The translations under genes were made by a program, and so were the position numbers. DNA of 64,000 nucleotides. Source: Ensifer adhaerens (GTDB lineage: Bacteria > Pseudomonadota > Alphaproteobacteria > Rhizobiales > Rhizobiaceae). This document shows, piece after piece, positions 8,653 to 21,989 of this stretch (its first letter is position 1; each line of letters starts with the position of its first letter). The notes below the pieces were generated by a model. That model saw nothing but the letters and a program-made list of their open reading frames with translations, made no database searches and was not told the DNA's origin. The stretch lies in assembly GCF_028993555.1 (NCBI RefSeq), contig NZ_CP118611.1, positions 2,007,501-2,071,500 on the forward strand, written 5' to 3'.

Positions 8653-9825
8653 CTAGGCCGGGATGGCGCGCGGCAGCACAATCGTGATCACGGCACCGCC
8701 ACCGGCGCGGGACGCGAATTCCAGCCGTCCGCCATGCGCCTTTGCGATCGCCTGCACGACGGAGAGACCGAGACCGGTGCCGCCCGTCGCCCGCGACCGC
8801 GAGGCATCGCCGCGCCAGAAAAGATCGATCGAATGGGTCGCGACATCGTCGGGCAGTCCTGGACCGCGATCCAGCAACCGGATGAAGGCCTCGTCAGCGC
8901 CGCGGCGACCCGTCTCGCACCGCAAGACCCCGCCACTGGCTGCGTAACGCGTCGCGTTTTCGATCAGCGCCAGCAGCGCCTGACGCAGTCGTTGCGAATC
9001 TCCGGAGACCCGGACCGGCTCCAGCGCGGTCTCGACCGACATGCCGGCCGAACCGAGCAAGGTGCAGGACGCTCCGAGAACCTGGGTGGCCTCCGCGGCA
9101 AGATCGACCGATTGACACTGGGTGACCAGCTTCTGGCCGGCGGCGAGCGACAGGGTGCGCAGGTCCTCGACCAAAGCGGAAAGCCCCTCCACCTGGACCA
9201 GCAATTGCTGGACCCTCTCCTGTTCGAGGGGGAAGACGCCATCAGCCATGCCCTGAAGATTGCCCTGAAGGATCGTCAGCGGCGTGCGCAACTCGTGAGC
9301 CACCGCCATCGTGTTGAAACGCAGCCGGTTCTCCATGTTTTCGAGCTCGGCCGCCAGTTCGTCGAAGGTCTTCACGAGCGTTGCCACCTCCTTGGCACCC
9401 TTGCGGATCGATCCGACGCGCACAGCGAAATCGCCCGCCCTGAGGTTCTGCGTCGCCTGGGCGAGCACCTCGAGCGGCCGGCTGATCTTGCGCGCCAGCC
9501 AGTAGCCGACGAGACCGCAGAACGTCACCGCGGTCGCTCCGAAGCCGAGGATGATCTTGTCCACCTCCCAGTTTGCCCACTCCTCGAGTTCGGGCATCGT
9601 CGAGAGTAGTTTCTGCAGCGACTCCTGGCTTGGCAGCTTGCCGGAATTGAAATCGGTATAAGCTTGGGCCGCTTCCGGCGGCATCCGCTCCAGGAGCCTG
9701 GCCTCCAGCCGCGGCTCCATGAAGTCGACGCCGGCATAGATGATGAACACGCTGATGATGAGCAGGACGATCGTCACCAGGGCCGTGAGAATGCCGAGCG
9801 GCAGGCGCGAGAGGCTGATCTTCAT
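8653..9825 (-). CDS. Sensor histidine kinase (BaeS-like)
   Basis: A 390-residue membrane kinase. An N-terminal transmembrane helix (about 11-33), a short periplasmic segment and a second helix (about 92-110) are followed by a HAMP domain starting ARKISRPLEVLAQA. The phosphoacceptor box AVAHELRTPLT puts the histidine at H177. The ATPase domain has the N-box ALIENATRYA, G1 box DRGPGLPDD and G2 box GGTGLGLSVV. It overlaps the upstream response-regulator gene by four bases, so the pair is co-translated. The domain order and helix-to-helix length resemble BaeS-type envelope-stress kinases; the stimulus is not evident. Confidence 0.9.
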   Translation of the reverse strand: MKISLSRLPLGILTALVTIVLLIISVFIIYAGVDFMEPRLEARLLERMPPEAAQAYTDFNSGKLPSQESLQKLLSTMPELEEWANWEVDKIILGFGATAVTFCGLVGYWLARKISRPLEVLAQATQNLRAGDFAVRVGSIRKGAKEVATLVKTFDELAAELENMENRLRFNTMAVAHELRTPLTILQGNLQGMADGVFPLEQERVQQLLVQVEGLSALVEDLRTLSLAAGQKLVTQCQSVDLAAEATQVLGASCTLLGSAGMSVETALEPVRVSGDSQRLRQALLALIENATRYAASGGVLRCETGRRGADEAFIRLLDRGPGLPDDVATHSIDLFWRGDASRSRATGGTGLGLSVVQAIAKAHGGRLEFASRAGGGAVITIVLPRAIPA

Positions 9826-10523
9826 CTCGGCTCCACGAAGCGATAGCCGACACCGCGAACGGCACTGAAGAGGCCGCTGGCACCGAGATCCTCAAGCTTG
9901 CGCCTGAGATTGGCGATATGGGTATCGACCGTACGGGCCAGTGCATCGCTGTCCGGCAGGCAGGCGTCGAGGATATCGGCGCGGTCGAAGGCATGCGTCG
10001 GGCGGCGGATCATGTGGGCGAGGATGCGGAATTCGCTGAGCGTCAGCGGCACCGAGTGTCGGCGGCCGCTCTTTTCAACGAAGGCGACGTGAGCATCGAG
10101 ATCGACTTCCACATTCTCGAAGCGAAGCACCGTTGCGCCGGCGCCGTTCCGGGTGCGCCGGAGCACCGCGTTGACGCGCGCCACCACCTCCTGCGGATTG
10201 AACGGCTTGACCACGTAGTCGTCGGCACCGAGCCTGAGGCCGGTCAGCCGGTCGAGATCCTCGGCCAGAGCGGTGACCATGATGACCGGTGTATTGCCTT
10301 CGCGCCGAAGGCGGGCGAGGACCTCGAAGCCATCGAGCTTCGGCATGCGCACGTCGAGCAATACCAGGTCGGGCGACAGCACCGCATGATGCGTCAGCGC
10401 CGTTTCGCCATCGGCAGCACGCACAGTCCTGAAACCATCGCGCACCAGATAGGCATCCAGGATCTGCGCGATCTCCGGCTCGTCCTCCGCCAAAAGGATG
10501 AGACCCTTGTCGACCATAAACAA
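9822..10523 (-). CDS. OmpR-family response regulator (BaeR-like)
   Basis: A 233-residue regulator. The receiver domain has the acidic pocket AEDEPE, phosphoacceptor D57 in LVLLDVRMPKLDG and the conserved lysine in DDYVVKPFNP. A C-terminal winged helix follows (LTLSEFRILAHMIRRP, then ARTVDTHIANLRRKLEDLG). Two start choices exist, ATG 10523 (MFMVDKG) and 10517 (MVDKG), differing by two residues. It is followed by its kinase with a four-base overlap. The gene is the first of the pair and its promoter must lie in the 312-base gap to the right. Confidence 0.92.
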   Translation of the reverse strand: MFMVDKGLILLAEDEPEIAQILDAYLVRDGFRTVRAADGETALTHHAVLSPDLVLLDVRMPKLDGFEVLARLRREGNTPVIMVTALAEDLDRLTGLRLGADDYVVKPFNPQEVVARVNAVLRRTRNGAGATVLRFENVEVDLDAHVAFVEKSGRRHSVPLTLSEFRILAHMIRRPTHAFDRADILDACLPDSDALARTVDTHIANLRRKLEDLGASGLFSAVRGVGYRFVEPR

Positions 10524-10835
10524 ACTCCCTGGCCCGATGTTGTGATCAGCAGCTTATGGGATGATTAGTTTCGACTTGCAATTCGTCCGCACACCACTGC
10601 CGCCCTTTGGCTGGCCTTCCGGATAGAGCCCCCGACAAATCTCCGCCATTTCTTGACAATCGGCACCGAGGCATTCGGGACATTGATCGACGGCGCGCCG
10701 CCCATCAGCAACCAAAAGGTGTAGTCAACAATCGCCCTGCTCTACGCATCAAGCTCTCCCCGATCCTCCACTTAGCCTTGACAAAGCAAAGCAAATGTCC
10801 GGCCCGCACACACCGACAATCTGCGAGCGACCGGC
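10524..10835. other. Gene-free interval, 312 bases
   Basis: Lies between the response-regulator gene (leftward) and the PAP2 gene (rightward). Open frames crossing it have no family signature or ribosome site. It must hold the two divergent promoters. A TTGACA hexamer is visible at about 10778-10783, upstream of the PAP2 gene, but I cannot pair it with a convincing -10 box. No palindrome or RNA structure stands out. Confidence 0.5.
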
Positions 10836-11633
10836 ATGTCCAGCCTCTACCCTTCCACGGCAACATCTTCAAACAGCATCCGATGGTTGCGCGCGAGCCC
10901 GCGCGAATGGGCCGAACTAGCCCGTGGGCGGGTTGAAGATCAGCCCATCGCGATTGCCGGCGCGCTAACCATTTGCGCGGCCTTCGTCTTCATGGCCTAT
11001 CCCGGCATCGATCTCGTCGTTTCCCGCTGGGCGGCGTCCGCGGCAGGCGATTTTCCGCTTTCCCGGGAGCCCCTACTCAGAGCGCTTCGCGACTTCAATC
11101 GCATCCTGCCGGTCTTCATTCTACCCTGCGTCCTGGCGCTGCTGGTCATGCAGGCGATTGCACCGCGCCCGCGACTGCTGCGGCCGCACAAGGCACTATT
11201 CTTTCTCACCTTCTATGCCATCGGCCCCGGGCTGCTCATCCAGGCATTGAAGCGGCTGATCGGCCGCGCCCGGCCCTATGACATTACGGATTTCGGTGGC
11301 ACCCTGCCGTTCACGCCCGCCTGGCAGGTCTCAAGCGCCTGTTCGCGCAGTTGTTCCTTCGCATCAGGCGAATCCGCAACAGCGATTGCACTCGTTGCAC
11401 TCGCGCTGCTTCTGCCCGTTCGGTGGAGGCGTGTCGCGATCATCGCGCTTGTCCCGTTGATCCTCGCCTTCTCGCTCAACCGCATCGTGTTTGGCGCTCA
11501 CTTCCTCTCCGACGTCGTGCTCGCCTGGCTTTTGATGCTGTGGCTGATGACGTGGCTTTGGTCGGCCTTCCGGGACAACGGCGAACGCATCGACGCCGCC
11601 ATGCAACGGCTCGGGCGGCGGCGAAATCCGTAG
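10836..11633 (+). CDS. PAP2-family membrane phosphatase with altered catalytic motif
   Basis: A 265-residue integral membrane protein of the type 2 phosphatidic-acid phosphatase family, which includes lipid A 1- and 4'-phosphatases and undecaprenyl-diphosphate phosphatases. Motif 1 is canonical (KRLIGRARP). Motif 2, normally PSGH, reads SFASGESA so the general-acid histidine is replaced by glutamate. Motif 3 reads NRIVFGAHFLSD and keeps the nucleophilic histidine and aspartate. Five to six membrane helices are apparent. SGE variants recur in alpha-proteobacterial PAP2 proteins as far as I recall, so it may still be an enzyme. Convergent with the kinase gene to its right. Confidence 0.85.
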   Translation: MSSLYPSTATSSNSIRWLRASPREWAELARGRVEDQPIAIAGALTICAAFVFMAYPGIDLVVSRWAASAAGDFPLSREPLLRALRDFNRILPVFILPCVLALLVMQAIAPRPRLLRPHKALFFLTFYAIGPGLLIQALKRLIGRARPYDITDFGGTLPFTPAWQVSSACSRSCSFASGESATAIALVALALLLPVRWRRVAIIALVPLILAFSLNRIVFGAHFLSDVVLAWLLMLWLMTWLWSAFRDNGERIDAAMQRLGRRRNP

Positions 11634-11648
11634 ACCGCCACCGGCGAT

Positions 11649-13742
11649 TCAGCTCGGAAAGACCAATTCGACGGTGGTTCCTTTCCCCGGTTGGGAGAGG
11701 ATGCGGGCGTCACCGCCGCTTTGCCGGACGAAGCCGTAGACGACCGCAAGGCCGAGACCGGCGCCGCCCTCCTCGTCGCGGGTGGTAAAATAGGGCTCGA
11801 ATGCCTTGTCCACGGCCTCCGGAGACATGCCGATCCCCTCGTCGGTGACGGAGACGACGACATCGGCTTCCATGCTCGCAGCACGGATGAGGATCGTCCC
11901 GCCCTGAGGCATCGCGGCGGCTGCATTGAGGCAGAGATTGAGGATCGCCTGTTCGAAGAGGGCGGCATCGAGATGCACATTGGGAAGACCGTCGGCGATC
12001 TCGAAGGCGAGACGGCACCTTTCCCCGACGGCAATTTCCAGCACGTCGGCCATGCCGCGCAGCACCGCGCCGATCTCGAGTGCGCCCGGTTGGATCGGGT
12101 GCTGGCTGCCGACGGACAACATGCTGCTGGCAAGCGAGCGCCCCCGATCGGCCGCTTTGCGAATGCGGGCGATGTGGCGCTTCTGCCGATCGTTGAAACC
12201 GGTATCCCGTTCGAGCAGCCCCAGGCTGCCGGTGATGATGCCGATCATGTTGCCGACCTCGTGGCTCACCTGGTGCGTCATGCGCATGATGCCATCCAGG
12301 CGTTGGGCCTTTGCCGCTTCAGCCTCCTGCCGATCCACGTCAGTGACATCCCGCGCCAACAGCACGATGCCGCGGTCCGGTTGCCGCGACAGCGAGACCT
12401 CGGTCACACGACCGGCTTCGGAGCGATGCCGGAGAACCAGCCGGTCGCCGAGCGTGCCCGTGTCGCGATCGGCCGGTAGCAGAGCCGGGTCGATTTCGGG
12501 CATCGGGCTCACGAAACTGCGCAGCGGCAGCTTCCTTGCCGAGCCCGGCCAGCCGACGAGCTCCATGACGCGACGATTCATCGTGATCGGTTTGCCGCTG
12601 GGGTCGAAGAGCGCGATGCCTTCGTTCATGTTGCGAAAGGTCGAACGAATGGTGCGTGCGGCTGCCTCGGCCGTACGTCGCAGCCGCGAGACGCGCTCGA
12701 CGCTTTCTCGAAATGCGCTGAAAGCCTCCAGCAACCGGACGAGCTCCGTCTCCGTCCCCTTGTAGGTCGGCGCATCGACGTCCCGGCGTCCTTCCGCCAG
12801 CGCGTTCATGCCGTTGGACAGCGACACGATCCCACGCGACACGCGCATCACGGAACGAATCGAGAAGACGGCCATGACAAGCACGAGCAGCGCCGCGACG
12901 GCGACGATGACGAGCAGACGGCTCAGAGCATTGGAGGTCGAGACGAGATCGTCATTGAGGCCGCGGGCGACCGCCTCGCTCTGCGTTTCCGTCGCATGCG
13001 AGAGGTCGCGCGACACGGTGTGCAATCGCGCGACGGCCGCGCGAATGGCGAACATCTCCAGGAGATATTGGGTCTGCGCCTCGAAGACCCGTTCATAGGG
13101 CGCGAGGTCGTTGGCGGAAACCCGGATATCGGGTGCCGCATGCTCAAGGCGCGGCACGGTTTCGGCAATGTAGCGGCGACGCAATTCGCCGAGCTGGAAC
13201 AGGCTGTCGGAGTTGGATGCCGATTGCACGATCCCGTTGAGGCGACGGCGGAAGTCGGCATCGGCCATGCCGCTGCCGGTCGCGATCTCGCCAAGTGCGG
13301 CTGCCGCTTCTGCCTTATGCTGCTGCGCCGATTCGGCATCCCCCGCCAGCGCCATCGTCTGGATGCGGATGGTCTCCAACAGCTCAACGATATGCCCGCT
13401 GGCAAAGCCCTTGACGGCCGCATCACCGTTCTGCGGCGCCATGGCGCGCAACAGTGCATCCACCTGCGCGACCACCGAACGGCTTTCGCTGGAAACCCGG
13501 TAGGGCGAGGTGGCGTTCATCAGAAACGGTGCGCTCGACACGAGATCGGAAACCTGGCGCGATACGAGCGAGGCCTTGGCAAGGCTGGAAAACGCCTGCA
13601 ACCCATAGGCGGCCATCTCGTCGCGCGCCCGCTGCAAGCCGAAGACGGCAACCGTCGCAAGGCCGAAGACGAGCACGCAGATGAAGGCGATCGCGAAGGG
13701 GAGCCGGAAGGCAATCGACGAAAGAAAAGGGCGAACGATCAC
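11649..13742 (-). CDS. Sensor histidine kinase with large helical periplasmic domain (TorS/PgtB-like)
   Basis: A 697-residue kinase. A first transmembrane helix near residues 10-32 is followed by a roughly 260-residue all-helical periplasmic region, a second helix around 290-310, HAMP, PAS, and then the kinase core. The phosphoacceptor box is HQVSHEVGNM (H494), with N-box LNLCLNAAAAM, G1 DEGIGMSP and G2 GGAGLGLAVVYG. The start is a GTG at 13742 overlapping the regulator's TGA (GTGA). The frame upstream of it is a shadow of the regulator. Large helical sensor domains of this kind in TorS and PgtB work with a periplasmic binding protein, and such a gene starts 220 bases beyond the regulator on the opposite strand. 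Confidence 0.88.
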   Translation of the reverse strand: MIVRPFLSSIAFRLPFAIAFICVLVFGLATVAVFGLQRARDEMAAYGLQAFSSLAKASLVSRQVSDLVSSAPFLMNATSPYRVSSESRSVVAQVDALLRAMAPQNGDAAVKGFASGHIVELLETIRIQTMALAGDAESAQQHKAEAAAALGEIATGSGMADADFRRRLNGIVQSASNSDSLFQLGELRRRYIAETVPRLEHAAPDIRVSANDLAPYERVFEAQTQYLLEMFAIRAAVARLHTVSRDLSHATETQSEAVARGLNDDLVSTSNALSRLLVIVAVAALLVLVMAVFSIRSVMRVSRGIVSLSNGMNALAEGRRDVDAPTYKGTETELVRLLEAFSAFRESVERVSRLRRTAEAAARTIRSTFRNMNEGIALFDPSGKPITMNRRVMELVGWPGSARKLPLRSFVSPMPEIDPALLPADRDTGTLGDRLVLRHRSEAGRVTEVSLSRQPDRGIVLLARDVTDVDRQEAEAAKAQRLDGIMRMTHQVSHEVGNMIGIITGSLGLLERDTGFNDRQKRHIARIRKAADRGRSLASSMLSVGSQHPIQPGALEIGAVLRGMADVLEIAVGERCRLAFEIADGLPNVHLDAALFEQAILNLCLNAAAAMPQGGTILIRAASMEADVVVSVTDEGIGMSPEAVDKAFEPYFTTRDEEGGAGLGLAVVYGFVRQSGGDARILSQPGKGTTVELVFPS

Positions 13743-14479
13743 GACTTCGGCTCGCCGTCGTCGGTATCGAGCACATAGCCTTTGCCGCGTCTCGTCTTGA
13801 TGTGGCGCGGCAGGTCCGGGTTGCGCTCGATCTTGCGCCGAAGCCGGAGCACGAGCACGTCGACATTGCGGTCGATGTAACGGTCGCTTTCGGCGCCGAG
13901 GCGGTCGAGGATCTGCGCACGGCCGACCGGCATGTTCGGTGTCTCTGCGAGGATTTCCAGAAGAGCGAACTCGGCACTCGTCAGCGACCTCGACGGGTCG
14001 GTCAGGCAAACTGCCCGGCGGCTCCTCAGATCGATCGACCAGTCGCCGAGCTTCATCGATGCCGGCTCGGTCTCGCGCTCGCTTTCCCGCTCCGGCTTCA
14101 GCGATGGATAGGTGCGACGGAGAACCGCCTTGATGCGCGCCGTCAGTTCGATCGGCTCGAACGGCTTGACGACGTAATCGTCCGCCGCCGTCTCCAACCC
14201 CAGCACCCTGTCCGCAGCACTGCCTGCCGCCGTCACCATGACGATACCGATATTGGTGCGGGCCCGCAGCCTCTGCGCAAAGGTGCGGCCCGAAGTGCCC
14301 GGCAAATTATGGTCGACAAGCACGAGATGCACCGCCTCACGCGCGAGCACATTGGCCGCCGCCTCCGCCGACGGCGCGGTCAGGGGCAGCCAGCCTTCCG
14401 CCTCCACCAGATCGGAAATAAGCTCCGCCATGTCCGGATCGTCCTCGACGATCAGAATCCGTATCCTCTCACTCAGCAT
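13739..14479 (-). CDS. OmpR-family response regulator of the putative three-component sensor
   Basis: A 246-residue regulator. The receiver shows VEDDPDMAE and phosphoacceptor D56 in LVLVDHNLPG, with lysine in DDYVVKPFEP. The effector is an OmpR-type winged helix (LTSAEFALLEILAETP, then RNVDVLVLRLRRKIERNP). The frame is open far upstream to 15046, but GGAGGACGTGC precedes the ATG at 14479, which also gives the family length. It is co-translated with its kinase and divergent from the AfuA-type binding-protein gene, whose promoter region carries phased TTTGT repeats that could be its binding site. Confidence 0.9.
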   Translation of the reverse strand: MLSERIRILIVEDDPDMAELISDLVEAEGWLPLTAPSAEAAANVLAREAVHLVLVDHNLPGTSGRTFAQRLRARTNIGIVMVTAAGSAADRVLGLETAADDYVVKPFEPIELTARIKAVLRRTYPSLKPERESERETEPASMKLGDWSIDLRSRRAVCLTDPSRSLTSAEFALLEILAETPNMPVGRAQILDRLGAESDRYIDRNVDVLVLRLRRKIERNPDLPRHIKTRRGKGYVLDTDDGEPKS

Positions 14480-14545
14480 GCACGTCCTCCCGCCCCCATC
14501 ATAGGCGGGGCCGTTCCAATGTTCAAAGCAGCTCACATTATGCGA

Positions 14546-14575
14546 TTTGTCATATTTGTAATCTTTGTAATTTTG
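14546..14575. promoter_or_regulatory. Phased TTTGT direct repeats in divergent promoter region
   Basis: Within the AT-rich middle of the gap between the response-regulator and binding-protein genes, TTTGT occurs at 14546, 14555 and 14564 with a 9-base period, followed by TTTTG. OmpR-family regulators bind direct repeats, usually spaced 10 or 11 bases, so this is a candidate site for the neighbouring regulator. The repeats are seen directly; the assignment is inference. Confidence 0.45.
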
Positions 14576-14696
14576 AAACGTCGGAGAGCGCCCAGGGCTG
14601 TAAGAACGGTAACCATTCTCCGATTGCGGCAGGCGGGGAATATCGACATCCTGACTGCGGAGATTGGGACGGCAGCGTTCCAAATGGGAGGACATC

Positions 14697-15719
14697 GTGA
14701 GAGGCATCACCGCTATCTGTGCGGGCGTGGCCCTGTGGCTGTGCACCGCTACAACAGGCATCACGGCGCCGGCGCTCACCGTGCTGTGCGGTGTCGACGA
14801 GGCGTGGTGCGCCGCGATGAAGACGGCGTTCGAGACGAAGTCCGGTCTGGAGATCTCGATGACCCGCAAGAGCACCGGCGACATTCTCAACCAGTTGCGT
14901 GCCGAGAAGATCGCGCCGACCGTAGACGTCTGGTGGGGCGGCACGGGCGACACCCATCTGCAGGCCGGATCCGAGAACCTGCTTGAACCGTATAGGCCGG
15001 CGCATGAACGCGACATGCTGCCCTGGGCCAAAAACTTCTTTGCCATTTCCGGCGGCAGATCGGCGGGTATCTATGCCGGGGCGCTTGGCTTTGCCTACAA
15101 TGCCGATCTTCTGCATGCGCTGAAGCTGCCGGCACCGACCTGCTGGAAGGACCTCGCGGACAACGCCTATCGCGGGCGCATCCGCAGCGGCAATCCGAAT
15201 TCCTCCGGCACCGCCTTCACCACGCTTGCAACCCTGGTGCAGCTTTTCGGCGAGGATGAAGCCTTTCGCTTCCTGTCCGCGCTCAATCGCAACATCGACC
15301 AATACACGACGGCCGGCTCCGCTCCGGTGAAAGCGGCCGCGCGCGGGGAAACGCTGATCGGCATTTCCTTCATGCACGACGCCGTTACCCAGAAGCAGGC
15401 AGGCTCGCCGCTCGTCATCGTCGCCCCCTGCGAGGGAACCGGCTACGAGATCGGTGCCGTCAGCATCGTCAAGGGTGCTCGGCATCTGGAGGCGGCGAAA
15501 AGCTTCGTCGACTTCGCGCTCAGCCCGGACGGCCAGGGCACGGGGGCGGCCTCCGGACAGAACCAGGTGCCGTCCAATGCGCGCTCTAACCTGCCGCTCG
15601 CCGCGCCCGATATCTCGATGATCAAGATGGTGGATTACGACTTCGCCACCTTCGGCTCGCCGGAAGAACGAAGTCGATTGCTCGAAAGGTTCGACGCGGA
15701 GATCGCCGCGACGAACTGA
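14697..15719 (+). CDS. Periplasmic substrate-binding protein, AfuA-type (likely sensor partner)
   Basis: A 340-residue extracellular binding protein of the ferric/AfuA/PgtC-like superfamily. Start is GTG 14697, preceded by the strong ribosome site GGGAGGACATC. A signal peptide spans about residues 1-24. Shared with the downstream paralogue are VDVWWGGTGDTHLQA, GVYAGALG-like (here GIYAGALGFAYN), GNPNSSGTAF, GSAPVKAAARGE, SFMHDAV, APCEGTGYEIG and YDFATFGSPEER. It stands apart from the transporter genes, divergent from the two-component system, and is separated from the second binding-protein gene by a palindromic element. I infer that it presents ligand to the histidine kinase, as TorT does for TorS; it could also feed the importer. 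Confidence 0.85.
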   Translation: MRGITAICAGVALWLCTATTGITAPALTVLCGVDEAWCAAMKTAFETKSGLEISMTRKSTGDILNQLRAEKIAPTVDVWWGGTGDTHLQAGSENLLEPYRPAHERDMLPWAKNFFAISGGRSAGIYAGALGFAYNADLLHALKLPAPTCWKDLADNAYRGRIRSGNPNSSGTAFTTLATLVQLFGEDEAFRFLSALNRNIDQYTTAGSAPVKAAARGETLIGISFMHDAVTQKQAGSPLVIVAPCEGTGYEIGAVSIVKGARHLEAAKSFVDFALSPDGQGTGAASGQNQVPSNARSNLPLAAPDISMIKMVDYDFATFGSPEERSRLLERFDAEIAATN

Positions 15720-15734
15720 CCGAGCTGCATGAAT

Positions 15735-15786
15735 TGGAGCGGGATGCGGGCGGAAAACCGCACAGACTTTTCCACATCCCGCTCCA
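15735..15786. repeat. Rhizobial intergenic palindrome, copy 2
   Basis: A 52-base element with arms TGGAGCGGGA (15735-15744) and TCCCGCTCCA (15777-15786), the same size and ends as the copy at 3233-3284. It lies sixteen bases after the stop codon of the first AfuA-type binding-protein gene. Both copies therefore follow or lie near a periplasmic binding-protein gene. Confidence 0.78.
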
Positions 15787-15895
15787 GCAAACCACAAGTC
15801 CGAAACCGTGAACGTGTCGCCCGGCGGGCAGGCCGATGGCCGCGCCGTGTCTCGTTCACGCCAATTTTCAAACCAGGCAACAGGAGGATGCCCCT

Positions 15896-16921
15896 ATGAA
15901 AAAGACGACCCTTTCCCTCATGCTCTTCGCCGGAACGGCGCTCACGGCCCTGCCGGCTCAGGCTGCCGGCAGCCTCAACCTTATCTGCTCGGCAGACGTG
16001 GTGATCTGCGAACAGATGACCGGCGATTTCCAGAAGGAGACCGGCATCAAGGTCAACATGGTTCGCCTGTCGTCGGGCGAGACCTATGCCAAGATCCGCG
16101 CCGAGGCCCGCAACCCGAAGACCGATATCTGGTGGGCCGGCACCGGCGACCCGCATCTGCAGGCGGCTTCCGACGGCCTGACGCTCGAATACAAGTCACC
16201 GATGCTCGATCAGCTTCAGGATTGGGCGAAGAAGCAGGCTGAAGGCTCGGGCTACCGCACGGTCGGCGTCTATGCCGGCGCGCTCGGCTGGGGTTACAAC
16301 ACCGAGATCTTCTCGAAGAAGGGTTTGAAGGAACCGAAATGCTGGGCCGACCTGCTCGACGCCTCGCTGAAGGGCGAGATCCAGATGGCGAACCCGAACT
16401 CGTCCGGCACCGCCTACACCGCGCTCGCCTCGCTGGTGCAGATCATGGGCGAAGATCAGGCCTTCGACTATCTGAAGAAGCTCAACGGCAACATCGCGCA
16501 GTACACCAAGTCCGGCTCGGCACCGGTAAAGGCGGCCGCACGCGGCGAAGCCGGCCTCGGCATCGTCTTCATGCATGACGCAGTCGCCCAGACCGCCGAA
16601 GGCTTCCCGGTCAAATCGGTCGCGCCTTGCGAAGGCACCGGCTACGAAATCGGCTCGATGTCGATCATCCGCGGCGCCAAGAACCTGGACAACGCCAAGG
16701 CCTGGTACGACTGGGCGCTCAAGCCGGAAGTACAGTCGCGGATGAAGGACGCCAAGTCCTTCCAGCTGCCGTCCAACAAGTCGGCCGAAGTGCCGAAGGA
16801 AGCCCCGAAGTTCGAGGATATCAAGCTGATCGACTACGACTTCGCCACCTTCGGCGACGCCGAGAAGCGCAAGGCACTGCTCGAGCGCTGGGATCGCGAA
16901 GTGGGCGCAAGCGCCAACTGA
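15896..16921 (+). CDS. Periplasmic substrate-binding protein of AfuABC-like importer
   Basis: A 341-residue extracellular binding protein. The start MKKTTLSLML at 15896 follows AGGAGGATGCCCC; the signal peptide ends near residue 22 (PAQA-AGS). Conserved blocks include IWWAGTGDPHLQA, VGVYAGALGWGYNTE, ANPNSSGTAYTALASL, GSAPVKAAARGEAGLG, FMHDAVAQ and APCEGTGYEIG. Many of these are nearly identical to the upstream paralogue, so the pair arose by duplication. The AfuA family is often labelled ferric-iron binding, but characterised AfuA binds hexose phosphates. The phosphatase-like gene downstream agrees with an organophosphate ligand. First gene of the transport operon. Confidence 0.9.
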   Translation: MKKTTLSLMLFAGTALTALPAQAAGSLNLICSADVVICEQMTGDFQKETGIKVNMVRLSSGETYAKIRAEARNPKTDIWWAGTGDPHLQAASDGLTLEYKSPMLDQLQDWAKKQAEGSGYRTVGVYAGALGWGYNTEIFSKKGLKEPKCWADLLDASLKGEIQMANPNSSGTAYTALASLVQIMGEDQAFDYLKKLNGNIAQYTKSGSAPVKAAARGEAGLGIVFMHDAVAQTAEGFPVKSVAPCEGTGYEIGSMSIIRGAKNLDNAKAWYDWALKPEVQSRMKDAKSFQLPSNKSAEVPKEAPKFEDIKLIDYDFATFGDAEKRKALLERWDREVGASAN

Positions 16922-16932
16922 TTGCAGGTTCG

Positions 16933-16958
16933 GCCGGCCGGAAAACAATCCGGCCGGC
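16933..16958 (+). other. Strong stem-loop between binding-protein and permease genes
   Basis: Inverted repeat GCCGGCCGG (16933-16941) and CCGGCCGGC (16950-16958) with loop AAAACAAT, immediately after the binding-protein stop codon. No T-run follows, so read-through is expected. The usual consequence of such a hairpin is more stable binding-protein mRNA relative to the permease message; this role is inferred. Confidence 0.6.
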
Positions 16959-17052
16959 ACCGCCTGGCCTAGACGCTCGTTCGTCGGCTCCGATCTCGAT
17001 CGGGGCGGCCCAACGGCATTTCATTTTCATCTCAATTCACGCGAGGACCGTC

Positions 17053-19290
17053 ATGGAACATCGCAACCGCAGGCTCGACCTCACGCTCGGGCTCGGGCTG
17101 GCCGCATTCTTGGCTGTCCCCTGGTATCGCATCGAAGGTGGCTTCTTCGGGCTCGGCTGGCTCGCCGATTTCCCATCCGACCCGGCCGTCGCCCCCGGCC
17201 TGATGCAGATCTTCGCCCATGGTCGGTCATGGCTGGTCGTGGCACTGGTGCTGCTGGGCATCTGCGCGGCAGCGCGTTTTGTTCGCGATCCAGCGCACCG
17301 CGGGCTCCTGCTTGCCGTCGCCGGCGCAACGGGTGTCCTCTATCTCGCCGTTCAAGGACTGGCGATCGGTTTCACCGGCTGGACCTGGACAATCAGCGAA
17401 ACCCTGTTCGGGCCGCTTTCCGACGGTCAGCCGTCGATGGGCGCCGGCGCAGTCCTGTCTGCCCTTGCCTTCATTCTGCTCTTCGCCTTCGGGCTTGCCG
17501 AGCGTGGCGTGCTCAAGGGCGACGCCTTCATTGTCGCCGCGATCTCGCTGCTCGTGGCCCTCGTCATCGTCTTCGTCTTCTATCCGGTCGGCAGCATGTT
17601 CGCGGCCTCCGTCCAGGATTTCGACGGCTCGTTCAAGCCTGATGGTTTCATCCGCAACATCCAGGACGGCTCGATCTGGAGCTTGAGCTGCGTCGTCGGC
17701 GAGGGCCGCTGCGGCGTCGCCTGGCGAACCCTCTGGCTGGCACTGATGACGGCATCCGGCTCGACACTTCTCGGCCTCGCCTTCGCGCTCGTTGCCACCC
17801 GCACACGCTTCCCCTTCAAGAAGGGCATGCGGCTTTTGACGGTGCTACCGATCATCACGCCACCCTTCGTCATCGGCCTGGCCTTGACCCTGCTCTTCGG
17901 CCGCGCCGGCGTCGTCACCGAGTTTCTCTCGGATGCCTTCGGCATCGAACCCGGTCGCTGGCTCTATGGTCTTACCGGTATCTGGATCGCGCAGGTTCTT
18001 TCCTTCACGCCGATCTCGTTCCTCGTGCTGATCGGCGTCGTCGAGGGCGTCAGCCCATCGATGGAAGAGGCATCGCAGACGCTGCGCGCCGACCGCTGGC
18101 GCACCTTCTGGAACGTCTCGCTGCCGCTGATGAAACCGGGCCTCGCCAACGCCTTTCTCATCGGCTTCATCGAAAGCATGGCCGATTTCGGCAACCCGCT
18201 GGTGCTCGGCGGCAGCCATGGCGTGCTTTCGACCGAGATCTTCTTTGCCGTTGTCGGCGCGCAGAACGATCCGTCACGTGCCGCGGTTCTCGCGATCATC
18301 CTGCTCTGCTTCACGCTTTCCGCCTTCCTGGCGCAGCGCTACTGGCTCGCCGGCAAGAACTATTCGACGGTGACCGGCAAGGGCGACTCCGGCGCCCATA
18401 GCGCGCTGCCACGCTCGCTTTCGATCGGCGTCCACGCCATCGTCATCCCCTGGATGATCTTCACCGTCGTCGTCTACGGCATGATCCTCTTCGGCGGCTT
18501 CGTGAAGACCTGGGGCCTCGACAATTCGCTGACCCTCGATCACTACGCCAAGGCCTTCTCGATCTCGTTTGCCGACGGCGCAATCGCCTGGACCGGTGTC
18601 GCCTGGAACTCGTTCTGGACGACCATGGAGATTTCGCTGATCGCCGCACCGCTGACGGCGCTCGTCGGACTGCTCACCGCGTACCTCATCGTGCGCCAGC
18701 GCTTTGCCGGCCGTGACGTCTTCGAATTCGCGCTGATGCTGAGCTTTGCCATTCCCGGCACCGTCATCGGCATCAGCTACATCATCGCCTTCAACCTGCC
18801 GCCGCTCGAAATGACCGGCACGGCGCTGATCCTCGTCGCCTGCTTCGTCTTCCGCAACATGCCCGTCGGCGTACGCGGTGGCATTGCGGCGATGAGCCAG
18901 CTCGACAAGAGCCTCGACGAGGCGTCGCTGACGCTTCGGGCAACGAGCTTCCGCACACTGCGCAAGGTCATCCTGCCGCTCTTGAGGCCGGCAATCGTCG
19001 CCGCGCTCGTCTATTCCTTCGTGCGGGCGATCACCTCGATCAGCGCCGTCGTTTTCCTCGTCAGCGCCGAATACAACATGGCAACCGCCTACATCGTCGG
19101 CCTTGTCGAGAACGGCGAGTTCGGTGTGGCGATTGCCTATTCCTCGGCCCTCATCCTGGTGATGGTCACCGTCATCACCGGTCTGCAACTCCTCGTCGGC
19201 GAACGCAAGCTGAGGCGCGAGAACCGTGTTCTCGGCGCCGCTCCCGCGCGGTCGTCCGCCACCACCATCTCTCAGGAGAAAACCGCATGA
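17053..19290 (+). CDS. ABC transporter permease, fused two-domain (AfuB/FbpB type)
   Basis: A 745-residue protein with two tandem BPD_transp_1 domains, so one gene supplies both halves of the membrane channel. Each half has an EAA loop that docks the ATPase: EEASQTLRADRWRTFWNVS in the first and DEASLTLRATSFRTLRKVI in the second. About 14 to 16 hydrophobic segments are visible, including extra N-terminal helices before the first domain. The ATG at 17053 (MEHRNRRLDL) is the first plausible start after the binding-protein gene; the longer open frame upstream is out-of-frame shadow of that gene. It overlaps the ATPase gene by four bases (ATGA). Confidence 0.92.
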   Translation: MEHRNRRLDLTLGLGLAAFLAVPWYRIEGGFFGLGWLADFPSDPAVAPGLMQIFAHGRSWLVVALVLLGICAAARFVRDPAHRGLLLAVAGATGVLYLAVQGLAIGFTGWTWTISETLFGPLSDGQPSMGAGAVLSALAFILLFAFGLAERGVLKGDAFIVAAISLLVALVIVFVFYPVGSMFAASVQDFDGSFKPDGFIRNIQDGSIWSLSCVVGEGRCGVAWRTLWLALMTASGSTLLGLAFALVATRTRFPFKKGMRLLTVLPIITPPFVIGLALTLLFGRAGVVTEFLSDAFGIEPGRWLYGLTGIWIAQVLSFTPISFLVLIGVVEGVSPSMEEASQTLRADRWRTFWNVSLPLMKPGLANAFLIGFIESMADFGNPLVLGGSHGVLSTEIFFAVVGAQNDPSRAAVLAIILLCFTLSAFLAQRYWLAGKNYSTVTGKGDSGAHSALPRSLSIGVHAIVIPWMIFTVVVYGMILFGGFVKTWGLDNSLTLDHYAKAFSISFADGAIAWTGVAWNSFWTTMEISLIAAPLTALVGLLTAYLIVRQRFAGRDVFEFALMLSFAIPGTVIGISYIIAFNLPPLEMTGTALILVACFVFRNMPVGVRGGIAAMSQLDKSLDEASLTLRATSFRTLRKVILPLLRPAIVAALVYSFVRAITSISAVVFLVSAEYNMATAYIVGLVENGEFGVAIAYSSALILVMVTVITGLQLLVGERKLRRENRVLGAAPARSSATTISQEKTA

Positions 19291-20360
19291 GCACCCAAAT
19301 GAGCACCCCGCGCACCGGCTCGGTCGTCTTTAAGAACGTGCGCAAGCAGTTCGGCAGCTTCACCGCCATCCACGACCTGTCGCTCACCATCGAGCCCGGT
19401 ACGCTCGTGACCCTGCTTGGACCCTCCGGCTGCGGCAAGACCACGACGCTGCGCATGCTTGCCGGGCTCGAGCACCCCTCCGCCGGCAAGATCCTGATCG
19501 GTGGCAAGGACGTGACCATGCTGCCGGCCAACGAGCGCGACGTGTCGATGGTCTTCCAGTCCTATGCGCTGTTCCCGCACATGACGGCACTCGACAATGT
19601 CGCCTATGGCCTTGAGTCGTCGGGCATCAAGAAGAAGGAGGCGCGCGAGCGCGCCGAAGAAGGCCTGCAGCTCGTGGGTCTCGGCGGCCTCGGACAACGC
19701 CTGCCCGCCGAACTCTCCGGCGGGCAGCAGCAACGCGTGGCCGTTGCCCGCGCCCTGGTTCTCGAACCACAGGTGTTGCTGCTCGACGAGCCACTTTCCA
19801 ACCTCGACGCGCGGCTGCGCCGCAAGGTGCGCACCGAGATCCGCGAATTGCAGCAGCGTCTCGGCTTCACGGCCGTCTACGTGACCCACGATCAGGACGA
19901 AGCACTCGCCGTTTCCGACCGTATCATCGTCATGAAGGATGGGGCGATTGCCCAGGAAGGAGCGCCACGCGACCTCTACGAGGCGCCCGCCTCCACTTTC
20001 ATCGCCGACTTCATGGGCGAGGCCAATGTGCTGCCTTGCGAGGTGACCGCGACTGATGCCGGCCAGGCGACGATCCGGATCGGGGGCTTCGAGCATCGCC
20101 TACCCTCGAAGACCGCTCGACCCGGTTCGGCGAAGCTCGCGGTGCGTCCCAACGCGGTAACCCTGACGCCGGCCAAGGGGGCGGCACTTTCCGGCACGAT
20201 CAGCAGCGCCGCCTATCTTGGCGGCCATGTCGAATACGAAGTCGAAACGGCAACCGGCCTCCTGTTTGTTGTCGATCAGGCCGTCGAGGACATGTTATCT
20301 CCGGCAACGGAGGTCGCCATCGGTTTCCGCAACCGCGGCCTCGCTTTGATTGACGCATGA
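19287..20360 (+). CDS. ABC transporter ATP-binding protein (AfuC/FbpC/PotA type)
   Basis: A 357-residue single-domain ATPase. Walker A is GPSGCGKTT (about 48-56), signature LSGGQQQRVAVARAL, Walker B VLLLDEPLSNLD and the switch histidine VTHDQDEAL. A C-terminal TOBE domain (about 240-355) follows, typical of the CUT1/ferric/polyamine ATPase group. Two ATGs, at 19287 and 19299, could serve; the first overlaps the permease stop. It energises the fused permease and should be co-translated with it. Confidence 0.93.
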   Translation: MSTQMSTPRTGSVVFKNVRKQFGSFTAIHDLSLTIEPGTLVTLLGPSGCGKTTTLRMLAGLEHPSAGKILIGGKDVTMLPANERDVSMVFQSYALFPHMTALDNVAYGLESSGIKKKEARERAEEGLQLVGLGGLGQRLPAELSGGQQQRVAVARALVLEPQVLLLDEPLSNLDARLRRKVRTEIRELQQRLGFTAVYVTHDQDEALAVSDRIIVMKDGAIAQEGAPRDLYEAPASTFIADFMGEANVLPCEVTATDAGQATIRIGGFEHRLPSKTARPGSAKLAVRPNAVTLTPAKGAALSGTISSAAYLGGHVEYEVETATGLLFVVDQAVEDMLSPATEVAIGFRNRGLALIDA

Positions 20361-20393
20361 CATTTTACAACTGGATACGAGAAGGACACTTGC

Positions 20394-21203
20394 ATGACTG
20401 CTGAAATTGCCGGCCTCGACGCCCGGTTCGCGCTTGCCAAATCCATGGCCGAGGAGGCCGGCCGGCTCGCCTACGATTATTTCCTCAAGCGGGATACGCT
20501 TGTCATCGAAACGAAGCGCGACGCGCATGACGTCGTCTCGATCGCCGATCGCAACGTCGAGACCCTGATTCGCGAAAAGATCGCCGCAGCGTTTCCGGAA
20601 GACGGCGTGCTTGGCGAGGAGCATGGTCTTCTCGACGGCACCTCCGGCTTCACCTGGGTGCTGGATCCGATCGACGGTACCACGCCTTTCGTCAACGGCA
20701 TGCCGAACTGGTGCGTCTCGATCGCCGTGGTGCATGCGGAAAAGCCCGTCATCGGCGTCATCCACGCCCCCTGCCACCAGGAAGTCTATGCGGCGGCGAC
20801 GGGCCGGGGCGCAACGCTGAACGGCAAGGTGCTTCGCCTCGACGGCACGCGCACGATCCGCAACGCCGTCACCGGACTTGGCGCCAACGATCAGGTGAAA
20901 CCCGGCGAGATGGGCGCCATCGTCGAGCGCCTGCTTTCGAATGGCGGCAACTTCATGCGCAACGGCTCCGGTGCGCTGATGATCGCCTATGTCGCCGCCG
21001 GTCGCCTCGTCGGTTACTACGAGCCCTACATGCATGCCTGGGACTGCCTCGGCGGGTACTGCCTGGTGAACGAAGCCGGCGGCTGGACATTGCCTTTCCC
21101 GACCCGCGGCGAAGCACTGACGCATTGGGCCCCGGTGCTCGCTGCCGCGCCGGGCGCAGTCGACGATCTCATGAACGTCGCCAGGCTCGACAAGGCAGCC
21201 TGA
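20394..21203 (+). CDS. Inositol monophosphatase family phosphatase
   Basis: A 269-residue Mg-dependent phosphatase of the IMPase/SuhB/HisN superfamily. All metal-site motifs are intact: GEEHG (E75, E76), DPIDGTT (D91, D94) and YMHAWDCLGGYCLVNEAGG near residue 215. It lies 33 bases after the ATPase gene in the same direction, so it is probably the last gene of the importer operon. A cytoplasmic phosphatase here fits dephosphorylation of an imported phosphorylated sugar, polyol or nucleotide. The substrate cannot be read from sequence; HisN-like histidinol phosphatase activity is a weaker alternative. Confidence 0.9.
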   Translation: MTAEIAGLDARFALAKSMAEEAGRLAYDYFLKRDTLVIETKRDAHDVVSIADRNVETLIREKIAAAFPEDGVLGEEHGLLDGTSGFTWVLDPIDGTTPFVNGMPNWCVSIAVVHAEKPVIGVIHAPCHQEVYAAATGRGATLNGKVLRLDGTRTIRNAVTGLGANDQVKPGEMGAIVERLLSNGGNFMRNGSGALMIAYVAAGRLVGYYEPYMHAWDCLGGYCLVNEAGGWTLPFPTRGEALTHWAPVLAAAPGAVDDLMNVARLDKAA

Positions 21204-21215
21204 TCACTCTGGCGT

Positions 21216-21989
21216 CTAACCGGCCGGCTTGTCGGACTTGAAGCCCAGCAGGCCGCCGAGCTCCATGGGGAACGGGAAGATGACAGTCGAATTCTTCTCG
21301 CCCGCAATGACATTCAACGTGCTCAGATAGCGAAGTTGCATGGCCTGAGGCTGCTTGGACAGGATCTCGGCAGCCTCGAGCAGCTTGGCCGCAGCCTGCT
21401 GCTCGCCCTCGGCATTGATCACCTTCGCGCGCCGTTCGCGTTCGGCCTCGGCCTGGCGGGCGATCGCGCGGATCATGCTCTCGTTGATGTCGACATGTTT
21501 GATTTCCACCGTCGCCACCTTGATGCCCCAGGCATCCGTCTGGCTGTCGAGGATCTTCTGGATGTCCTCGTTCAGCCGGTCGCGCTCGGCCAGCATCTCG
21601 TCGAGATCGTGTTTACCGAGCACTGACCGCAGGGTCGTCTGAGCCAGTTGGCTGGTCGCCATCATGAAATCTTCGACCTGGATGGTCGATTTTTCCGCAT
21701 CGATGACCCGAAAGTAGATGACGGCGCTGACGCGCACCGAAACGTTGTCATGGGAAATGACGTCCTGGCTCGGCACGTCCAGCACCCGGGTCCTGAGATC
21801 GACCCGCACCATCTGCTGCACATAGGGCACCAGCAGGATCAGGCCTGGTCCCTTGACGCCGGTAAACCGGCCGAGCGTGAAGACCACCCCGCGCTCGTAT
21901 TCGCGCAGGATTCGGATCGAATAGGCGATAACGAGGATGATGAGCACCAGCAACGCGGCAAAAGGAGCAAGGCTCCCAAACATGTCCAT
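21216..21989 (-). CDS. Slipin family SPFH/Band 7 protein
   Basis: A 257-residue stomatin-like protein. One N-terminal membrane helix (about 5-28) is followed by [14 protein letters not shown], the Band 7 start, and the conserved [21 protein letters not shown] and [15 protein letters not shown] stretches. A helical [17 protein letters not shown] coiled-coil region and an [13 protein letters not shown] segment follow near the C-terminus. It is expected to form oligomeric membrane scaffolds. The gene follows the NfeD-type protease gene on the same strand. Prokaryotic slipin and NfeD genes are usually paired and probably act together in membrane-protein quality control. Confidence 0.93.

Follow-up and report, generated by a model that had tools for sequence, protein, structure and literature searches.

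Positions 11649 to 21203 of a 64,000-nucleotide stretch of Ensifer adhaerens DNA (assembly GCF_028993555.1, contig NZ_CP118611.1, positions 2,007,501 to 2,071,500 of the forward strand; hereafter the window, in whose coordinates positions are given) carry what we regard as a real, conserved sensor-importer-phosphatase unit, composed of a histidine kinase and its response regulator, two solute-binding proteins (SBP1 and SBP2) of the AfuA type, the permease and ATPase of an ATP-binding cassette (ABC) importer, and an IMPase-family enzyme. The initial annotation of this locus had proposed that a phosphorylated compound is sensed in the periplasm, imported intact and dephosphorylated inside the cell. 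The sequence tests reported here mostly favour that mechanism, which we consider well supported, and the locus is probably a self-contained sensing, import and dephosphorylation unit for a phosphorylated polyol.

According to this model, SBP1 would bind a phosphorylated polyol (a sugar phosphate or an inositol phosphate) in the periplasm and would dock on the kinase's helical sensor domain, and the kinase would phosphorylate the OmpR-type regulator. The regulator would bind an operator made of 9-bp repeats and turn on the SBP1-SBP2-permease-ATPase-IMPase genes, SBP2 would pass the same kind of ligand to the permease and ATPase for import in intact form, and the IMPase-family enzyme would strip off the phosphate inside.

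The seven genes, located on a 2.78-Mb contig of a 7.77-Mb genome, were confirmed at the positions, on the strands and in the order initially described. Together with two elements between the divergent genes, the features are:

11649..13742, minus strand: sensor histidine kinase, 697 amino acids; transmembrane segment, periplasmic helical domain, transmembrane segment, PAS, HisKA/HATPase_c
13739..14479, minus strand: OmpR/PhoB-type response regulator; Response_reg and Trans_reg_C
14546..14570, no strand assigned: candidate operator, three TTTGTNA units spaced 9 bp, periodicity kept in related loci
14598..14629, no strand assigned: second conserved block, CTGTAAGAACGGTAACCATTC..., with GTAA twice at 9-bp spacing
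14697..15719, plus strand: SBP1, AfuA-type binding protein; SBP_bac_6/8; proposed sensor partner of the kinase
15896..16921, plus strand: SBP2, AfuA-type binding protein; SBP_bac_6/8; proposed binding protein of the importer
17053..19290, plus strand: fused ABC permease, a single 745-amino-acid chain with two BPD_transp_1 stretches
19287..20360, plus strand: ABC transporter ATPase with a TOBE domain
20394..21203, plus strand: IMPase-family phosphatase; Inositol_P, E 3.5e-53; GEE, DPIDGT and WDxxG motifs

The GTG start of the kinase at 13742 overlaps the regulator stop, and 217 bp separate the regulator from the divergent SBP1 gene. PAS_7 and HATPase_c exceed their Pfam cut-offs in the kinase; HisKA falls under its own (21.2 vs 26.9 bits), and an SHEVGN H-box is present. 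SBP1 and SBP2 share 48-49% identity. The phosphatase belongs to the IMPase family PF00459 (181.3 bits vs a cut-off of 27) and contains GEE, DPIDGT and WDxxG, which we take to be the metal-site motifs; its assignment as a HisN or SuhB equivalog was rejected, both scores lying under the NCBIfam cut-offs (162.6 vs 275.15 and 132.9 vs 332).

Gene order across relatives

The gene order, whose conservation across Rhizobiales the initial annotation had named as a check, was recovered in many Rhizobiaceae and in Stappiaceae, while a class-wide draw of 289 genomes (sensor-domain threshold E 1e-6), with just three others of the same order, returned the sensor domain in the window's own genome alone (1/289). 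A draw of 199 genomes from the family, taken as Rhizobiaceae, gave 17 sensor-domain matches in 16 genomes at a threshold of E 1e-4, the window being one of the 17. The named-genome scan, represented by the best 80 loci of 105 relatives, reached Ensifer, Shinella, Rhizobium, Neorhizobium, Agrobacterium, Peteryoungia, Ferirhizobium, Pannonibacter, Roseibium and Stappia, with the nearest named relatives of the locus in Ensifer. Once two loci at which contigs end were omitted (L138 and L167, 3.5 and 4.2 kb; L, G and C numbers designate loci, genomes and contigs), the order kinase-regulator//SBP1-SBP2-permease-ATPase was kept in 78/78 assessable named loci, and because of this recurrence the locus is not a chance cluster. 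An AfuA-like SBP adjoins 17/17 sensor-domain matches of the family draw, so that an SBP encoded and conserved with the kinase and regulator, as expected of a three-component system, was found in both sets. Kinase homologues without any adjacent binding protein had been named initially as an argument against the proposal; no clear case was seen among the 17 family matches and the 80 named loci, 78 of the latter being complete and two cut by contig ends.

Phosphate removal by the IMPase is the weakest step of the mechanism. The gene follows the ATPase in 67/77 assessable named loci (L170, at a contig end, being omitted from this count); the loci that lack it belong to eight Agrobacterium strains, R. 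nepotum and one R. rhizogenes, and three further Agrobacterium-named loci retain it. Other genes follow the ATPase in the IMPase-less loci (L121, L122, L123, L126, L127, L129, L130, L134, L135 and L139).

Beside the locus, a PAP2-family phosphatase gene (10836-11633, plus strand) adjoins the kinase gene; among the loci searched, a PAP2 gene at this place was seen in Ensifer loci only (L053, L054, L093, L094, L095, L110 and L113). There is also a separate second two-component pair (8653-10523, minus strand), with sub-cut-off AdeS/BaeS and AdeR as the nearest NCBIfam models, and a regulator related to this pair flanks several Ensifer loci. No Rfam RNA element was found at E 0.1 within 10500-21300.

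Ligand pockets and candidate cargoes

AfuA (4r72) is the best solved relative of both SBPs (E 8e-81 and 6e-90), followed in both cases by 8x1a and then by the vitamin B6 phosphate binder P5PA. In the account of PMC4546632, mutating His205, Asp206 or Glu229 of AfuA abolished binding of glucose 6-phosphate (G6P), and Ser37 and Thr150 contact the phosphate. His205, Asp206, Glu229, Tyr103, Thr60, Ser148, Gly149 and Thr150 are kept in 78/78 SBP1 and 78/78 SBP2 sequences of the named loci, and the Ser37 position holds Thr in 75 and Asn in 3 SBP1 sequences and Ser in 77 and Ala in 1 SBP2 sequences, Thr being the residue described for P5PA (PMC8427247). The comparison extends to 44 loci, mostly higher-scoring ones, that lack the two-component system (TCS): class C, comprising 18 loci in which SBP2 reaches at least 70% but the kinase is absent, and class D, comprising 26 in which SBP2 lies at 55-65%. 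Not fewer than eight further genomes that have a close SBP (G289, G322, G406, G420, G438, G460, G476 and G484) lie outside this fetched set. The same residues, rechecked except for Gly149, are kept in 18/18 class C and 23/23 class D importers examined (L081, L083 and L085 being omitted from the class D residue and pocket comparison), and the distant kinase-linked relatives L065, L066 and L067 retain His205, Asp206 and Glu229. L068 (G442:C15), a second and distant copy found within the same genus, comprises a long kinase with a receiver-like end slightly under the cut-off, a regulator, an SBP, a permease and an ATPase, followed by an alkaline-phosphatase-family gene (Pfam).

Three pocket positions depart from AfuA: Thr11 is Asp in 77/78 SBP1, 78/78 SBP2, 18/18 class C and 18/23 class D proteins, Gly36 is Ser in all SBP1, SBP2, class C and class D proteins compared, and Ile186 is Ser or Ala. 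On account of these differences the cargo may be a compound other than G6P.

In the ferric-binding proteins FbpA and HitA, a Tyr-Tyr pair provides the iron ligands. The HitA motif YYWY aligns to SFMH in SBP1, after a 3-residue insertion, with Ser-Phe in the place of Tyr-Tyr; binding of free iron only, which the initial annotation had considered fatal to its proposal, is thus not indicated by the sequence. Database names would suggest uptake of ferric iron, 2-aminoethylphosphonate or pyridoxal phosphate, since the names of the nearest PDB chains include Fe3+ transport and the nearest NCBIfam models are PhnS2, PhnU2, PhnT2 and a ferric ATPase. We consider this very improbable: every one of these models scores under its cut-off (PhnS2, TIGR03261, 196.9 and 194.6 bits vs 392.75; PhnU2, 284.8 vs 593.25; PhnT2, 380.9 vs 457.7; ferric ATPase, 383.9 vs 496), which led us to reject 2-aminoethylphosphonate as cargo, and ferric iron was rejected on the missing Tyr-Tyr pair and the kept essential residues of AfuA. 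Vitamin B6 phosphate was rejected in turn, because Asp206 and Glu229 are invariant (78/78 in each SBP) where P5PA is described as having Ala (PMC8427247). With the AfuA residues kept and the ferric, P5PA and PhnS2 signatures failing, both SBPs should bind a phosphorylated polyol.

The TCS-free loci behave as sister operons. A divergent LacI-family gene lies 148-251 bp from SBP2 in 13/18 class C loci and at about 0.9 kb in two class D loci, and none occupies that place in 95 TCS loci; the IMPase gene adjoins 18/18 class C loci. Four of the five class C loci without a LacI-family gene (L091, L178, L179 and L187) have a convergent iolB-iolE-iolD-iolC set beyond the IMPase. The iolB, iolE and iolD of L091 exceed NCBIfam cut-offs and its iolC, a cut piece, falls under them; the iol genes of the other three were assigned by similarity (71-91%), their iolB also by a separate iolB search. 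A divergent iolG-iolC-iolD-iolE-iolB set (similarity 46-62%) accompanies class D loci L192 and L193, with the iolG of L193 and the iolB of both over cut-off. The iol linkage thus involves six genomes of three genera, where a simple chance model expects 0.19 linkages (p ~0.001 if these are three independent events, 0.016 if two). Directly before the SBP2 start, the five class C loci that have no LacI-family gene (L091, L178, L183, L179 and L187) have a short stretch in common, CGGCGTGGAGGCGCCG, which is possibly a hairpin.

Close AfuA-type SBPs occur in 67/199 family genomes. An iolB over cut-off was present in 31/31 genomes with an SBP2-type operon vs 92/168 others (p 6e-8, in a test that ignores relatedness and whose 168 others may include further SBP2-type operons), and in 62/67 genomes with any close AfuA-type SBP vs 61/132. 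The control xylose isomerase showed no such enrichment (26/31 vs 138/168, p 0.53), and inspection by eye of the matches listed found no xylA within 7 kb of an AfuA-type SBP. In one class D locus (L189, G439:C32), the AfuA-type importer has a phnJ (carbon-phosphorus lyase) gene about 8 kb away. Among the TCS loci, ugp genes occur at 6/80 named loci, with UgpB, UgpA (L101), UgpC, UgpE (L155) and UgpE (L120) over cut-off and the remaining ugp neighbours assigned by similarity, and in 8/80 the operon includes a HAD hydrolase that resembles the fructose-1-phosphate/6-phosphogluconate phosphatase family without reaching its cut-off.

The same machine may instead carry a hexose or heptose phosphate, like AfuABC of Actinobacillus pleuropneumoniae, reported as an importer of G6P, fructose 6-phosphate (F6P) and sedoheptulose 7-phosphate (S7P) (PMC4546632), with the IMPase acting on the sugar phosphate or being accessory. 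This cargo, to which we would give something short of an even chance, suits the kept sugar-ring contacts (His205, Asp206, Glu229 and Tyr103) and most phosphate contacts of AfuA, the HAD hydrolase of the eight named loci, and the loss of the IMPase from 10/77 loci, as expected if no phosphatase is needed. It is disfavoured by the replacement of Thr11 (by Asp in most), Gly36 and Ile186, by the iol linkage in three genera, and by the IMPase gene of 67/77 TCS and 18/18 class C loci, which would be unexpected if the cargo fed straight into glycolysis. Taken together, the iol, ugp, HAD and alkaline phosphatase neighbours suggest an organophosphate in which inositol can be the carbon moiety; judged from gene context, the most likely cargoes are inositol (mono)phosphate and a hexose or other sugar (or sugar-alcohol) phosphate, both put forward tentatively and with similar reserve.

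Sensing and transport modules

Pairwise protein distances over 79 loci resolve two co-evolving modules: the distances of the kinase sensor, regulator and SBP1 correlate at 0.93-0.94 and those of SBP2, permease and ATPase at 0.85-0.88, with between-group values of 0.63-0.77. The permease shows a partial correlation of 0.75 with SBP2 vs 0.29 with SBP1 (bootstrap difference 0.34-0.56), the sensor domain correlates at 0.46 with SBP1 vs 0.32 with SBP2, and SBP1 has evolved at roughly double the rate of SBP2 (mean distance 0.30 vs 0.14). By this split SBP1 is likely the sensor protein and SBP2 the binding protein of the importer. Recent tandem duplication of the two was rejected, as SBP1 (with L065) and SBP2 form separate groups in the tree. 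In genome G437 the two sets lie on different contigs, the first with kinase, regulator and SBP1 accompanied by a separate permease and ATPase, the second with SBP2-permease-ATPase-IMPase; given the separate modules, the window resembles a sensor module joined to an importer module, and it looks as though SBP1 lost its own permease at the joining.

Alternatively, SBP1 might broaden the ligand range of the permease as an additional binding protein, and the kinase would then sense another signal, or the ligand directly. SBP1 is indeed the first gene of the transporter operon, and L065 to L068 have a single SBP with kinase and permease, which may serve both. We nonetheless judge this unlikely, because SBP1 co-varies with the kinase and regulator, the partial correlations tie the permease to SBP2, SBP1 was never found without the kinase among the loci fetched, unlike SBP2 (18 class C loci), and SBP1 of the window type deviates at 29/132 positions conserved in 119 transport-type SBPs.

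The hydrophobic stretches of the kinase start at residues 16 and 277, which leaves about 240 periplasmic residues and not the 260 or so initially given; the predicted structural model upholds the helical character of the domain. The two-module helical architecture of the TorS sensor was found, and we have moderate confidence in a TorS parallel that holds for the fold alone: the kinase scores 63.4 bits against the NCBIfam TorS equivalog cut-off of 676.5 and, unlike TorS, is not a hybrid kinase, and a sensor-domain profile compared with PDB sequences gave chance-level matches only (best E 0.4). The TorT binding protein, for its part, belongs to another family than SBP1 and SBP2.

The putative operator is distinguished by its period. 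Self-match at 9 bp was 0.504 vs 0.264 +/- 0.010 in shuffles (79 loci, ~39 effective), and all other spacings from 6 to 15 gave at most 0.30; many more-distant loci have no exact TTTGTNA units and keep a looser 9-bp periodicity. The triple pattern has a single perfect copy in the genome, the sole other site within two mismatches being on a different contig, and a reversed control pattern of the triple had no site in the genome. The uniqueness of the operator implies a local, dedicated regulator.

Several results weigh against the proposed unit or its inositol cargo. When all other proteins are controlled for, the sensor domain does not correlate significantly better with SBP1 than with SBP2 (95% bootstrap -0.02 to 0.28), and the TorS-like fold is also that of receptors to which ligands bind directly, such as McpS with malate or succinate, a point that favours direct sensing by the kinase. 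L068, with kinase and SBP, has Ala and Asn instead of His205 and Asp206. Besides the absence of an operon IMPase from 10/77 assessable loci, whole-genome searches of 6 of these 10 gave best IMPases of 39-45% and no close copy, compared with second-best IMPases of 36-41% in three genomes that retain the operon gene. No iol genes were found near 96 TCS loci, the window excluded (up to 10 kb on the kinase side and ~3.5 kb beyond the ATPase), and the exact IolR box, given as GGAA-N6-TTCC in PMC2597717, was not found upstream of the SBP in seven loci (the six iol-linked ones and L183, with 230 bp only for L187). The control phnJ was enriched too, more weakly (28/31 vs 109/168, p 0.003), so part of the iolB co-occurrence reflects lineage or genome size.

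Known systems and significance

SBP1 is distantly related to the 6lkg chains, presumably HptA (E 5.6e-9). HptASR of Staphylococcus aureus, in which G6P-binding HptA with HptS and HptR controls phosphosugar uptake (PMC8774646), resembles the window in having a phosphosugar-binding protein that acts with a kinase and regulator, but the transporter under its control in that account is the antiporter UhpT, where the window has an ABC importer that brings its own SBP. CuaDSR/CuaABC of Ruminiclostridium cellulolyticum combines a sensing-dedicated SBP beside kinase and regulator with an ABC importer that has its own SBP (PMC10384115); as described there it is Gram-positive and serves cellobiose, with no phosphate or phosphatase. 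CuaD is the closest parallel for a sensing-dedicated SBP, and HptASR and CuaDSR, as presented in these sources, are experimentally studied systems of the same logic. The account of GltB/GtrS/GltR in Pseudomonas aeruginosa likewise has a periplasmic binding protein required for ligand-induced kinase activation, but with free glucose as ligand and no phosphatase (PMC7927077). AfuABC, to whose AfuA both SBPs are closest, differs in that the window has two SBPs, its own kinase and regulator and an operon IMPase, besides the replaced pocket residues.

We see in the locus a conserved variant of a known SBP-kinase sensing logic, with inositol phosphate as the boldest candidate for its cargo. Inositol phosphates are a pool of soil organic phosphorus. 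Among the matches listed from the open-access literature, no paper dealt with the locus or with a bacterial inositol phosphate importer, and we put forward, a shade more tentatively than the cargo itself, that this may be the first dedicated bacterial importer of inositol (mono)phosphate with its own three-component sensor, the myo-inositol released by the phosphatase being burned via iol to yield phosphorus and carbon, and that relatives may hold the same importer core under differing control (three-component sensor, LacI-type regulator or iol linkage).

If the cargo is inositol phosphate, this importer family would link the gain of phosphorus and carbon in one system. Whatever the cargo, the locus offers a clean natural case of a sensing SBP beside a transport SBP, and in its sister operons a LacI-type regulator, which would sense inside the cell, replaces the three-component system and its sensing outside. 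Our results also suggest that some transporters labelled as iron systems deserve renaming, as the authors of the AfuA study asked.

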